Positions 15,426 to 22,535 of a stretch of DNA of 64,000 nucleotides are shown here, piece after piece. The notes beneath the pieces were generated by a model that saw only the letters and a program-made list of their open reading frames with translations, searched no databases and had not been told where the DNA came from. Made by a program: the position numbers and the translations under genes. Within the stretch, counting starts at the first letter, position 1. Every line of letters begins with the position of its first letter. Source of the stretch: Rhizophagus irregularis (Eukaryota > Glomeromycota > Glomeromycetes > Glomerales > Glomeraceae); assembly GCF_026210795.1 (NCBI RefSeq), contig NC_089439.1, forward strand, positions 930,001 through 994,000, in the 5' to 3' direction.

Positions 15426-17117
15426 TGTTCAGTCATGTGTTTCGTTTCCTAAACATGCTTTTGAAGCTATCATCCACTACTTTCTTAACTTCTACCGGGT
15501 CTGTTGCCAGTCTATTAGTCGAGCTTCCTGGTTCCTCGTCTACTAAAGTCTTGTCTATTACTATTTTATTGTGAGTGTTTATATCTAATATGCTAGACAA
15601 CCATGTTGTTTGGTCATCTCATATAATTTCTACTCGCCTGTCTAACCTGTCTTTAATGTGTGGCTTTAAACTTCTTGTAATCTATTCTTAGTCGGTAATT
15701 CACTTTTGATTTAAGAGTGTCAAACCAATTCTTCAAAAAAATATCCTGTGTGGATATGTTACACTTATTACTGTCATCGGTTGATGTAACATAATCCTGA
15801 TTGTATTTGGCAATTTTTCTTGTCCATCTGGATTTAGCGTCCTCTGATGCGATCATTTGTTGATTGCCGTGGTAATAATTATGCAATAGTTTGAGCAATT
15901 TATTTGTGTGGCGTTCCAGTCTCAGCTTTTTTTATTATAATGCTTAAAAGAATTATGAAGTCTGAAGACTTTTCTAGGAAGTTCTTTATCCGCTGCATAT
16001 GTGATAATCCTGTTAAGTTTATCCCAATATTTATCTATGTCTTCCTGGGAATAATCCGCGAAATTTTCTCTATCCTCGGGGACATCTTGATCAAGAGAGT
16101 TTAGTTGATTGCTAATATTAAGTCGAAACTTTTTCCATGTTTCTGTATCAGTGTTATCACAGTCATACATTACTTTAGTGTGGGCGTTACCCGTGGGTAG
16201 TTTATTATATATTGTATTTTTCCTATTATTTCGTATAAGGTCAGAAGTGTCCATGGTTATTGTAATTATGTCATAATCCTTTGTGTGATAAACGTTGAGG
16301 GGTAATTGAAAAATTCAATATATTATTACTATAGATTTCAGATACCCAGATTTGGTCTATTCTCATGCTGACATTTTCTTTATGATAAGTGTACCCTAAT
16401 GCTTCTTTATTAAGTTTCCTATATGAATCTATAAGTCCTAATACTTCAAGATCATTAAAAAATTTGGGTCTAGAGATGTGTAGCGGGAGAGTACGATCGA
16501 TATAACCATTTGAAATCATATTAAAGTTACCTAATAATATATGTACTATGTTTTTTGATTTTTTTCGAATAGCTTTATCACACATTTCTTTCTTAAGTTT
16601 CTCCAGAGTGTCATGAAGAATGGTCATGTTTTGTGATGCTGCGTAAATAATCTATATACAAAATATAACATTTCTAAATAAAAAGTATACTGAGAGTAAA
16701 TATGATGAATGAATTTTGTGTCCTTGGTAGTATTTGTTCCATTTCTGTGAACATATTAGCGCTACTCCTGATTCTTTTTATTTGTTGTGCTGTTTATTTA
16801 ACCAATATATATGGAATTGATCCTTAAAACTGTTGGGCATTTTGAAAAAACTGTTCTTTTGGTCTAAGTTAGTTTCGTTTAAGGCCAATATATCCACCTG
16901 ACTTTCTAACATCCAATTCAGTAATCCATAAAGTTTTGCATTGTCCCTTGCCAATCCATTGATATTGTGAGTTCCAATATGGAGCGTAAGGTACAACGCG
17001 TCTAAATCTATTTTTTTTGTTCCTCATACCGAAGCTTTGACTAAGTAAAAAACTATCAATGTTAACTAAATTAGTATTGTTATTGTTCTTGTTACTCTGT
17101 TCTCTAATGTTCGACAT
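15426..17117 (-). pseudogene. LINE A ORF2 endonuclease and linker region
   Basis: The APE-type endonuclease begins with a YLTLHIGTHNINGLA motif around 16990 and continues with DILALNETNLD (catalytic Glu). A second block, 16627-16271, carries LLGNFNMIS (the GDFN motif with Asp replaced by Asn) and MRIDQIWVS, ending in SHKG, the conserved His of the family. The frame breaks into pieces: stops near 16778 and 16650, a probable 1-bp insertion after SHKG near 16272, and another shift near 15920. Upstream, 17117-16997 gives an Asn-rich lead in another frame. The linker 16254-15430 has no recognised domain but is in the expected place before the RT. Confidence 0.8.
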
Positions 17118-17392
17118 TATTGTAGTATTGTTTATGTTTTTATATATTAAAGTAGTCTATAGTGGTTTAACTATTTGTTCCAGCCAAGTAGTTCTCTATT
17201 CTATTTTAAATTTAACGCGTCTCTATCTTTTTCTTTTGCAATTCTTCTATTCCTTGCCCGCAAGGAGTTCCAAAAAGATCGTATTCTTTTTTTATTTAAA
17301 TACTTAATAAATAATAAAATATTGCAATTTATTTTTTTATTATTAATAAATGCAAATTTTTAATAATATATTATAATATAGTATTGACATAA

Positions 17393-20300
17393 GGCCGGAC
17401 CAATTGGATAATGTGTTTAACGTAACATCTTGGTCAAAATTTAGAGGGGGGGGAGAGGTAAATAATCAACACCAAATTTTGAACACCATATAAAAAATTT
17501 TGATGGTTATATAAGTATAAAAAAAAATAATTTAAATTTATAAAAATGTAAATATTTGTATTATTTATATTTGTAATTGAATAAATACTTAAAAGGAAAT
17601 TGGTAAATTTATTTGCATTGCAGATTCGTAAAATTATATTATTCAGTTTGATTTATGGTTTACATTAATACTACAATAAAATATTTATTGGTCATGCTTA
17701 CGTTTTTTAGTTTGTATTGGCATTCGACAAAAAAAATCCAGCCCTTTATCTTGGCAACCTGCACATAAAGAGAGTATTGATTTATATTTTTCCATTAGTG
17801 AATCCGGCTTGTCCTGTAAATCATCTGTTGATCCACAATGGTAGCACCGATCAGAATGGACTTTTCGACAAGAATAGTAAGTAAATTCCATTGGTGTTTT
17901 ACAACAAATTTTCTCCTGAACAAACACTTTATCAAACAAGTTGTGATCCTGTGGAAAAACATGTATAAGGCCAGTTCTCTATAGCATGTTGAATCTCAAG
18001 ACCATCTTGTTCAGTAAGCTGCCTCCCACTAAATAAGCAACGTACCTTTGAACATTCATTACAAGTTATGAATTCACGAACCTTGATATTAATATACAAT
18101 CCTGATGGTCCTCTTTCCGTACCAGTAGCAGCAATTTTTTTAGATGGTTGATGCTCATCAGTCGTAGGTTTATTATACACCATAGAAAAATTGGCATAAT
18201 GATCAGAATCATGAGCTATATATTATTAGTTTAATATTCTGATTTGGTAATATTGAAATCAAATTGAATCGTACCTGCTGGCGTTGGGTCTGGAAGAAAA
18301 TCAAGAGATTCAAAAACTTCTTGTAGTGTTCGTGGCATAGTACAAATTTCACATTCAATGTTGCCACATTTTTTTATCTACCAAAACAATGTATTTTATG
18401 CTACTCAAGTTAATGAATTTTAATGAATTGATGTTAATTAAAACTAAAATCAAATTATTGTAAGTTTTGAATTCATAAACCTATAAATACATACTTGGAA
18501 TGAATAAGTCCGAATTTGGCAATGTGTTTGAATAAAGTTTTGTAAATCAGAATGTTGCCGAAGTATTGATTGTGTAGTCTCATCACAACGCAAAGTTGAA
18601 TCAATTGAAATAATTGACTACAATAAAAGATTATAATAAGCTATTTGAGTTTAACAAAAAAATTATTTAATTCTGAAATTACCTCAAAAAATCGTGCAAT
18701 TTCTTCATCATCCGCAGGACTTTTACATATAAAATTTTCGTTATCTAATACCAATCTTTCTGTTCGCCTATTTAGAAGCTGCTGAATAGATTTAATTGAA
18801 TTTCTAAGTTCACTTTCTAATTGTGAATTGTTTTTAGCAACTAAACGAATTTCTTCTAGTGTATTTTTTCTAGAAAACAAATCTTCCATTTCGCTACTCA
18901 TCTGATCTCTAAGGAGAGCCACGCCTTGTAAACCAAGATTTAAAATTGACATTATTCTTTCAGCTGGATTTGTCCAACTTTGTGCTGGGGCTGTTCTCAT
19001 TGCTATTAACATATCAAAATTACCACGAATAAACAAACACAGAAGAGACACTTGAACAGATCCATAGGTTGTTCGATGGTCAGGCCCTCCATCAGTATAA
19101 AGACACATGATAGGTGGAATTTCAGTAGAATTAAGATAGTGATCAGAAAGTGTAGAAAAGAATTCTGTGGAATGGCGAATTCCAGAACTAGGTTCAAAAA
19201 CTGTGTTTTTGTATGAAGTATAGACTTTTCCATAGTAAAATGATTCTGAAATGGAGGCAGGTATCTTACATAAAAGTATTACTGAAGGTGTCAAGGATAA
19301 TTTTGTAAAGTCATGATCACTTGCTGCCAAAATTGTGTTATCAGGTATCAATGATTTCCTATTACGAACTCCAGTTGAGGTAGCAACTTCTTCACCAATT
19401 GCTACTTTGTGCTTGTCATCAGCACAAATAAACACTGTGAACTTTCGATACTTAATAGCAAATTCACGTAAATAACGAAAATATCCAGCACAATAATGAC
19501 TGTCTGGATGATCTTTTCTTAACAGACGTGCTTGAACTTTATATCTGATATTAAATCTTCCAGTATAATTAATTGCTGAATGTGCTAGAGTATTTTTTGA
19601 AGTGAATTGAACACGAATCCATTCATCACTAGGAATGTTGATTTCTGAAGGAAGAGGATTTCCAAGCCTGGTTTGCAATCGGGATATTATTGATTCTCGC
19701 AAATCTCTAATTGACAGAACTATTGGCATATAAAGAGTAGAACCATGACGCCTATCATCTACAGCAGGTGTATTCTACATAAATTAAACATTAATAGAAA
19801 TATGCCATTAGTGTATGTGTAATAAAGTTGTAATTTAATCTGAATTACCTCATTAAAGTAAGAATCAACTTCTTCCCAAAAAATATCAAATGATGTTCCT
19901 TTGAATCCATTATTAATTCTTAAGTCCACTGTAATATTAGGATCCTGTAGTGTTAACATCCATCGGAGTCTTTCATCTAATTCTTTTGTGATATTATTTG
20001 GTGCTATTGTTGCATCTCCAGTTAAATCATGATATAGATTACGCAATAAAACTGGAGTAACTTTAGCAACTAACGAATACTAAAAATAAAATGTTTACAT
20101 TAAAAAATGATGAAAATGATGGACATATTGATTGAGTTGTTGGTTAAACTTACCCTTTCAAGCATATTTTTTCGCATTTGACGTGTAAAATAATGAGGTA
20201 TAAGGTCTTGTATAGATAATAATGTTTGTGCATTTTGTGTTTCTGTACGATCATTAACTTCAATTGGTATTTTCCATATAAAAGTTGTAGTTCCAAGATA

Positions 20301-21555
20301 ATTACCAGCATGATATTGATAAAAACCTATTGGAAATATCAATTCTAAATTCTTTATAAACCGATGCCTTTTCATTCCTGGTTCTGGAAGATATCTTTCA
20401 ATATTAATATATTTATAATCCTCCAAATTTGAAATCGCAAAATTTAAGTCATCATAGATAGAATCTGATTGGTTACAAGCTTCAATAATTTTAACCATAA
20501 TATTTTCTATCCCATTCCGTGCTGGTTCTAATGATTTATGTAATTTATTCATTGAATTATTGACTTGTTCAAGATAAACCATATATTTTTTAACCATTTC
20601 TATTAGCTTATACAAATCTTCTATTAATAAAGCCCAAAGAGTATCTTGTGTCCAAGGTTGTGCAAGGCTAAGTTCAAAAGACTTTATTAGCTTATCCAAT
20701 TTTTCATGTGAAACTTCTTCATGTTTATGATGTGTAACAGAATAATATTGATTATAACTTTGATTTTGTTCATACGTTAACAATTCTGTAAATAAATTTG
20801 GCAAATGGCACGCACGTTTGGCAAATTTCTTAAGATGTGGATCAATATACCACAAAATTTTTGCTAGTCTTTCAATACATTTTACACCTACTGATAAATG
20901 TAATCCACCAGTCCAACCAACTTTTTTATTTTCAAAAAGAATGATTATTTCATTATATAGAAGATCATTTCGTGTAACTTGGGGTTGCTTTTGATTTGGT
21001 AATTTTAGTTGTAATGCATTTTGCATTATAAGGTCTAACGCATTTCTTCTAGGTGCAACTGAATGATCTGCTAATGAACAAATTTTAAACCTTAATTCCG
21101 TAAATTTAAATCCTTGAATCATTTCTGTTATAAGATCATCTGAGTTTTCAATATAAACCCATGAAGATTTTTCATCCACCCGGCAATATATTTCAAAATT
21201 TTTTTGTCTATATGCATCTAGTGTAATTTTATGAAAAAGGCTCTCAAAATAATAATCATCAACTTTTATAAGATTTGGTTTAACAATATCTTCAACACCT
21301 TCTTTGACTGTGACAATTAAACGCATGTTTTAAAATATAAGAAAAAGTTTACTCAACATCACTGTGCAGTACGCACGATTTTTAATTTTAATATGTGTAA
21401 ATGTTAAAATTCCGAATGTTTAAATTCTAAAAATGGAAAATTAATAGTACAAATATACCTAAAAATAGAATTTTATATACTGTTGATTTTCTTCTCAAAT
21501 TCGGCTATTAGATAGGGGGGGGTTATGTTAAACATATGATCAAATTGGATCGGCC
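17393..21555. mobile_element. Transposon of unplaced superfamily with TWA-type target duplication
   Basis: Left end GGCCGGACCAATTGGATAAT continues GTGTTTAACGTAAC; the right end is the complement of GGCCGATCCAATTTGATCAT followed by ATGTTTAACATAAC, about 28 of 34 positions matching. Direct TAA is at 17390-17392 and 21556-21558. Inside is one minus-strand gene of six exons with a D..D..E core. TAA/TTA duplications are known for PIF/Harbinger, but the protein lacks any motif I recognise from that transposase, and no second (Myb-like) gene is present. A runs-of-G segment follows each terminal repeat (about 17443 and 21515). It is nearly whole, with one apparent frameshift in a T run. Confidence 0.85.
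17685..21326 (-). CDS. Six-exon DDE-like transposase candidate
   Basis: Exons on the minus strand: 21326-20154, 20079-19849, 19774-18683, 18617-18495, 18377-18275 and 18215-17685, all with GT..AG borders and agreeing phases; about 1,080 residues. The N-terminus (about 80 residues, MRLIVTVKEGVEDIVKPNL) resembles a PB1-type fold. Exon 3 carries TVFICADDKHKVAIGE, CLYTDGGPDHRTTYGSVQ and NPAERIMSILN; Asp105, Asp213 and Glu257 of that exon are spaced 107 and 43 residues apart, as in RNase H-fold DDE enzymes. Exon 5 has CGNIECEIC, and the last exon has CNECSKVRC, CYHCGS and LCAGC, likely zinc ligands. One base too many in a T run near 17955 shifts the frame in the last exon. I recall similar unnamed proteins in cnidarians and sponges, but could not check. 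DNA cleavage and strand transfer are inferred. Confidence 0.8.
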
Positions 21556-21558
21556 TAA

Positions 21559-21635: not shown

Positions 21636-22535
21636 ACAAGAATGTCCTCAAAGTTACAAGAACAAAAATATGAGAACAAAAATGTTCTCAAAATTATGAG
21701 GATAACAATGTCCTCAAAATTATAAGGACAAAAATGTCCTTAAACTACAAGAACAAAATGTCATCAAGTTACAAGGATAGAAATGTCCTCAAATCATGAA
21801 GACAAAAATTTATAAGGACAAAAATGTCCTTAAAATTACAAGGACAAAAAATTAACAATATTTACAGTTACAAAAACAAAAATGTCCTCATAATTGTGAG
21901 GACAAAAATGTCCTCAAAGTTGCAAGGTTAATAATATCTTCAAATTTATAAGGACAAAAATGTTAAGAAACAAGATTTTGAGGACAAAAATATCTTCAAA
22001 TTTACAATAAAATGTTCTCAAAGTCACAAGGACAAAAATATGAGGACAAAAATGTTCTCAAAATAATGAGGACAAAATGTCCTCAAATTTATGAGGATGA
22101 AAATATCAAGATTTTGAGGACAAAAATGTCCTCAAAATGAGGACAAAATATCCTTAAATTTACAAGAACAACAATGTCCTCAAAATTATGAGGACAAAAT
22201 GTTATCAAGTTCCAATAACAGGAATGTTCTCAAATTACAAAAACAATAATATCCTCAAATTATGAGGACAAAAATGTCCTTAAATTACATGGACAAAAAA
22301 TTAATAATGTCTCATAGTTGTGACTTGTGAGGACAAAAATCATGTCCTCATAGTTGCGAGGACAAAAATCATGTCCTCATAGTTGCGAGGACAAAAATCA
22401 TGTCCTCATAGTTGCGAGGACAAAAATCATGTCCTCATAATTGCGAGAACAAAAATCATGTCCTCATAGTTGTGAGGACAAAATAATTTCCTCAAAGTTG
22501 CGAGAACAAAAATGTCCTCAAAATATTGAAGGCAA
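21636..22535. repeat. Palindromic minisatellite, GAGGACAAAAATGTCCTC units
   Basis: About 30 imperfect units of 25-30 bp. Each carries GAGGACAAAAATGTCCTC, itself a near-perfect inverted repeat, joined by AAATTATGA-like spacers. Between 22325 and 22470 four or five copies of a 29-bp version (TTGCGAGGACAAAAATCATG + TCCTCATAG) are almost identical, indicating recent expansion. No open frame is conserved. Confidence 0.92.

Follow-up and report, generated by a model that had tools for sequence, protein, structure and literature searches.

The 64,000-nucleotide stretch of DNA that we analyzed from the arbuscular mycorrhizal fungus Rhizophagus irregularis (contig NC_089439.1, positions 930,001 to 994,000 of the forward strand; the whole stretch is hereafter called the window) contains a whole transposon of 4,163 bp, which carries on its reverse strand a gene of six exons, the third of which encodes a predicted DDE-type transposase domain. 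As listed in Table 1, the element ends in two 34-bp terminal inverted repeats (TIRs), the left one being GGCCGGACCAATTGGATAATGTGTTTAACGTAAC and the right one its imperfect inverse. Both start with GGCCG and directly abut a TAA target site duplication (TSD). A preliminary description of the locus had reported such ends together with the TAA duplications, and both can be read directly from the sequence and recur in a full-length copy elsewhere in the genome (G000:C5:3072616-3076787), which is 99% identical to the window element and has TAA on both sides. The element itself is thus confirmed as a real TIR transposon, and the earlier interpretation as a whole is partly supported. The two copies, which differ by 23 mismatches, one 11-nt gap and one 2-nt gap, look recent, and recent mobility, put forward in the preliminary description as recent activity, is supported. 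Since the C5 copy has one stop in exon 3 and 11 nt are deleted from exon 6 of the window copy, the gene is intact in neither.

The six-exon gene and its predicted catalytic residues

The gene, for which six exons had already been proposed, encodes 1001 residues up to a stop in exon 6 that is caused by a frameshift. This splicing pattern is supported because two intronless relatives (L049 and L050; 31-38% identity) align over the five exon junctions, the alignment being interrupted by a short gap (a few residues) at the second alone. The frameshift results from the 11-nt deletion, which lies near position 17961 and therefore puts exon 6 out of frame near the C terminus, the last cysteine pairs being found in another reading frame. 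This deletion is absent from all four fetched copies that cover the site (L002, L003, L004 and L007). The gene had been considered nearly whole, which is right, but it is not whole.

Three acidic residues of exon 3 had been proposed to form a DDE-type triad, and this assignment holds throughout the sequences that we aligned. D119 (in the motif ADDKH), D228 (TDGGPDH) and E272 (NPAER) are kept in all 15 sequences, window included, which represent both the window family and a second R. irregularis lineage described below and were picked because they contain no stop and align over 200 residues or more. The gap between D119 and D228 is 108 residues (107 if counted from D120, in agreement with the preliminary description) and that between D228 and E272 is 43 residues. 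Across the 15 sequences, the spacing between the second aspartate and the glutamate is invariably 43, with 105 to 112 between the two aspartates.

As for the regions outside exon 3, a Pfam scan of the N-terminal 179 residues of the window protein gave no family at E values up to 10, and the PB1-like N terminus of the preliminary description is therefore not supported. Among the relatives, a faint PB1 match occurs in L051 only (E 0.099), where it lies away from the N terminus. The zinc-binding C terminus is weakly supported. Weak matches to a CW-type zinc finger were found in three of the four relatives scanned at their C-terminal part (L048, E 3.8e-3; L049, E 3.4e-4; L050, E 5.7e-4), all under the curated cut-off, and no such match was found by Pfam scan in the fourth (L051) or in window exon 6 itself.

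Table 1. Features of the transposon and of the related lineage (positions in the window unless a locus is named)
Feature	Position	Strand	Basis or remark
Whole transposon, 4,163 bp	17393..21555	- (gene strand)	Ends and TSD read directly; full-length C5 copy
TSD TAA, left	17390..17392	.	Directly outside element end
TSD TAA, right	21556..21558	.	Directly outside element end
Left TIR, 34 bp	17393..17426	+	3' side of gene
Right TIR, 34 bp	21522..21555	-	5' side of gene
Exon 1, 391 residues, N-terminal part	20154..21326	-	Aligned with intronless relative L049
Exon 2, 77 residues	19849..20079	-	Gene model and alignment with intronless relatives
Exon 3, 364 residues, ISAzo13-like DDE catalytic domain (predicted)	18683..19774	-	Profile comparison and alignment
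First catalytic Asp, D119	19418..19420	-	Aligned with ISAzo13 Asp
Second catalytic Asp, D228	19091..19093	-	Alignment
Catalytic Glu, E272	18959..18961	-	43 residues after D228
Exon 4, 41 residues	18495..18617	-	Gene model and alignment with intronless relatives
Exon 5	18275..18377	-	Gene model and alignment with intronless relatives
Exon 6, to frameshift-caused stop	17932..18215	-	Cysteine cluster aligning with the CW-type-like one of relatives
Site of 11-nt deletion	17955..17965	.	Compared with L002, L003, L004, L007
Out-of-frame continuation of C terminus, last cysteine pairs	17685..17978	-	Other reading frame
Second-lineage loci	L047:647-2617; L039:1204-3012; L088-L093		One long open reading frame

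Copies, target duplications and empty sites

The window element belongs to a large family. In the genome that we searched (146,748,485 bases on 32 contigs), the exon-3 protein matches at least 114 stretches at E values up to 0.001, a lower bound that counts some copies in several pieces. When these 146.7 Mb were searched with a 34-base pattern that describes both ends, up to three mismatches being allowed, 10 places matched, against none for the backward control. TAA or TTA lies directly outside all 10, and the window and C5 copies account for four of them. Among 27 more distant relatives (L012-L038; 54-64% identity), 17 have a recognizable 3' end, in every case next to TAA or TTA, and no such end was found in the remaining 10 (L012, L014, L015, L023, L024, L029, L033, L036, L037 and L038). 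At the 3' side of the gene, these 17 show the same end layout as the window element, in which GGCC or GGCT is followed mostly by a CCAA block and then by a GTTTAAC-like block. Chance matches to the end motif, in L014, L015, L018, L019, L021, L032, L034 and L036, were dropped by eye because they lacked the (C)CAA and GTTTAAC-like blocks.

Of the 16 relatives for which both sides were fetched, 11 show both ends, no 5' end having been found in L013, L016, L020, L025 and L032, and a perfect 3-bp duplication of TTA or TAA flanks each of the 11. With the window and C5 copies added, this holds for 13 of 13 two-ended copies, although several of the counted copies form near-identical groups (for example L026, L027, L028 and L030), located at different places. 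The TAA/TTA targets of the preliminary description are thus supported, and other copies share the ends.

Moreover, unoccupied target sites could be recognized for L026, a diverged copy of 4,172 bp. When its flanks are joined with a single TTA, they can be aligned gap-free with two unoccupied places, C1:4496470-4496666 (92% identity) and C19:1655806-1655995 (87%), and a third match is more distant (C8:3839861-3840060; 78%, 200 bases versus 197). The same probe made for L018 gave no match that spans the joint over the whole probe, and, as to the window element, its right flank is a repeat present elsewhere and its left flank aligns poorly. The precise ends, the 3-bp duplications and the empty sites together point to cut-and-paste insertion with a 3-bp stagger. 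In mechanistic terms, the encoded protein would bind the GGCC...GTTTAAC ends, cut the element out by means of a D-D-43-E triad on an RNase H fold, as homology suggests, and join it into staggered cuts at a TTA or TAA target, where repair would leave the 3-bp duplication. The C-terminal cysteine clusters probably bind zinc and may help to contact DNA or chromatin.

Two groups within the family can be added to this picture. The exon-3 proteins of L026 and L027 are the same, yet the two copies sit on C11 and C16 and are each flanked by a separate 3-bp duplication, which is a sign of recent movement. L048-L051 form a subfamily with 40-45% identity to window exon 3 and long intronless open reading frames (ORFs), of up to 694 unbroken residues in L050; their ends were not found within the fetched stretches.

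Relationship to ISAzo13 and Zator

A second R. irregularis lineage (L047, L039 and L088-L093), abundant with 80 matches in the genome, shares 29-31% identity with window exon 3 in tblastn searches, and its member L039 is homologous to it (29%, E 5e-20). Like the window family, it has a D-E spacing of 43 and, in the two copies looked at, TAA duplications and TIRs starting with GG. It differs in that its elements are shorter (about 3.1 kb in L092 and L093, which lie on different chromosomes, are 99.6% identical over that length, and have TIRs starting GGGAGCTTAC and TAA on both sides), in having one long ORF, and in matching models of bacterial ISAzo13 transposases directly, albeit under threshold. 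The window family combines a six-exon gene with a CW-like cysteine cluster and is too far away to be detected by PF07592. L039 and L047 match PF07592 (E 2e-5 and 6.6e-5, respectively) and the NF033519 model transpos_ISAzo13 (E 6.9e-8 and 2.8e-9). Conversely, a search of the genome with PF07592 gave a single place under E 0.01, which is L039 (E 0.0012), out of 12 listed when E values up to 10 were admitted.

Profile comparison extends this link to the window family. When a profile of 13 family members, window included, was aligned by hhalign with one of 10 plasmid ISAzo13 proteins, the E value was 1.9e-7 (for a single comparison), with a score of 61.8, a probability of 93.7% and the D, D and E residues aligned. 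An ISAzo13-like match was present in 166 plasmid records, 40 of which were listed, and the 10 proteins were drawn from these 40. Eight are annotated frames, of which two are partial, and the other two were translated from annotated places with a listed length not divisible by three. In controls, the best of 100 column shuffles scored 24.7 (one value being repeated) and the reversed profile 16.9, while seven Tc1-like proteins from the same genome gave E 0.46, in a profile that is weak because its sequences are near-identical. Their Tc1 type was confirmed by Pfam for the one scanned (L042). The window family aligns with L047 and L039 at E 6e-24, and these two align with ISAzo13 at E 8e-10, or 3.7e-9 when six members are used (single comparisons). 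Against four cyanobacterial ISAzo13 proteins (L058-L061), the window family gave E 1.1e-6.

When the sequences are aligned jointly, the acidic triad falls at homologous positions and the motifs D.K, HDF, DGG/DNG and S..N..E coincide with those of ISAzo13. The D-E spacing is 42 in all 10 ISAzo13 proteins, versus 43 in the window family. In a tree, the two fungal lineages are grouped, with ISAzo13 apart (support 94/93). The ISAzo13 elements differ in being bacterial and having one shorter ORF, and, in that alignment, the identity of window exon 3 to L059 is 18%. The profile link and the intermediate lineage therefore place the window family on the ISAzo13/Zator side of the DDE transposons, and exon 3 is, as far as sequence comparison can tell, a very diverged eukaryotic relative of the bacterial ISAzo13 (PF07592) transposases. 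We consider it highly probable that the window element is a copy of a cut-and-paste transposon of an R. irregularis family that belongs by descent to the ISAzo13/Zator line, either as a divergent Zator or as a sister group of it.

Several observations weigh against this placement. Window exon 3 alone matches no transposase model of Pfam or NCBIfam, eight other loci of the family scanned with Pfam likewise match none (L019 gave three chance families), and the genome search with PF07592 misses the window lineage itself. Within that lineage, L048 touches NF033519 at E 0.08 and L051 does not match it. Even in the second lineage, the bit scores of L039 and L047 stay under the curated cut-offs, at 24.2 and 22.5 for PF07592 (cut-off 26.9) and at 31.9 and 36.5 for NF033519 (cut-off 200). 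The hhalign comparison with the six ISAzo13 rows that are not of the cyanobacterial type was weak (E 0.0092), the grouping of the two fungal lineages has moderate support (89/92) in a tree where the branch of the Tc1 outgroup is very long, and no solved structure was matched by sequence or profile search. Other candidates were rejected. Matches of the single window protein in Pfam, PDB and NCBIfam are due to chance only, as is the one match obtained in each profile search of solved structures; the four plasmid records touched by a tblastn search with L039 (E 0.2 to 7) were likewise taken as chance, two of the matches lying over traD, one in an unannotated record and one outside any listed gene.

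Alternatives and position relative to named superfamilies

One alternative, put forward in the preliminary description, is a nameless DDE superfamily unrelated to any named one. In its favour, searches with single sequences find nothing, and no confirmed relative turned up in viral contigs or prokaryote genome contigs, where the pattern searches detect only near or well-patterned relatives. Such a superfamily is nevertheless improbable in view of the ISAzo13 profile link, with its shuffle and Tc1 controls, and of the chain through L047 and L039. The preliminary description had held that the enzyme fits no superfamily, and this does not stand, since the family shares ancestry with ISAzo13 transposases, and Zator has its prokaryotic counterpart in ISAzo13. 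The claim is weakened rather than overturned by a direct hit, in that the match to a named superfamily comes through profiles and the intermediate lineage and not from the window protein itself. An element of the Tc1/mariner or pogo type, within the wider IS630-Tc1-mariner group, is more unlikely still. ISAzo13 is distantly related to Tc1, as seen in the alignment of the Tc1-like profile with ISAzo13 (E 6.6e-6) and in the match of the ISAzo13 protein L059 to DDE_3 (2e-6), but the window family did not align convincingly with the Tc1-like control, weak as that profile is, its duplications are TTA or TAA instead of TA, and its D-E spacing is 43 instead of the 34 described in the literature for Tc1/mariner.

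We give even less credit to a PIF/Harbinger element. Targets of 3 bp with the sequence TTA or TAA are typical of that superfamily, and both the target (TWA) and the length of the duplication agree. However, Pfam scans at E up to 10 found no Harbinger nuclease and no Myb-like domain in the window protein, in line with the preliminary description, nor in ten proteins comprising window exon 3, eight relatives and L039, and ISAzo13 is the only named DDE family met among the Pfam-scanned fungal proteins of both lineages. Finally, the many spliced exons and long accessory regions might suggest a host gene or a domesticated transposase, which is hardly credible given the precise ends and duplications of the 13 two-ended copies, the empty sites of L026 and the 99% identical copy elsewhere.

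Placement in the ISAzo13/Zator line leaves the relation to Zator itself to be considered. Zator is said to have been established as a superfamily by Bao et al. in 2009. Passages of the literature describe it as a eukaryotic group similar to ISAzo13, with 3-bp duplications in both (PMC10045372), pair it with ISAzo13-like elements (PMC5718144), and treat it as a separate superfamily near IS630-Tc1-mariner that is tied to bacterial TP36 (PMC7386202, PMC8533490); in one passage it is called the most abundant family in Caenorhabditis elegans (PMC12239620). The window family resembles Zator, by published description only, in its 3-bp TSD, found in all two-ended copies, and in a transposase related to ISAzo13/TP36 (passages of PMC10045372 and PMC7386202), a relation seen by profile and through the intermediate lineage and unseen with the single window sequence. 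Within the ISAzo13/Zator side of the DDE transposons, the family thus stands as a divergent branch with a multi-exon gene and GGCC ends, which resembles that line in its workings as in its descent. It is likely to be a member of Zator proper, and the second lineage possibly is Zator proper. A more tentative and somewhat doubtful reading would make the window family a separate eukaryotic superfamily, sister to Zator and derived with it from an ISAzo13-like ancestor, which would be GGCC-ended, strictly TTA/TAA-targeting, equipped with a large spliced transposase bearing a CW-type-like zinc finger, present in more than 100 stretches of one mycorrhizal fungus and possibly widespread in animals. 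Similar proteins may occur in cnidarians and sponges, as the preliminary description suggested.

In a curated study of R. irregularis transposable elements, two-thirds of the elements are unclassified, and passages of it and its results section report no Zator although a Zator model was built (PMC11075540). Two abundant ISAzo13-like lineages lying below model cut-offs may put a name to part of these elements. They also form intermediate steps from a bacterial insertion sequence to a eukaryotic transposase that is large and rich in introns.

Beside the transposon, a domain fragment of the endonuclease/exonuclease/phosphatase type is encoded at positions 16778-17023 of the window (reverse strand). 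It matches Pfam under the cut-off (E 9.9e-5) and is probably the remnant of a long interspersed nuclear element. On the other side, a palindrome-like unit, GAGGACAAAAATGTCCTC, underlies the tandem repeats of about 25-29 bp at positions 21663-22513, and related stretches occur at many other places in the genome. As for the Tc1-like elements of R. irregularis, L040-L046 are near-identical, with open frames of 339 residues in five of the seven fetched (contigs C5, C8 and C11), and L042, the one scanned, matches both HTH_Tnp_Tc3_2 and DDE_3 over the cut-off.

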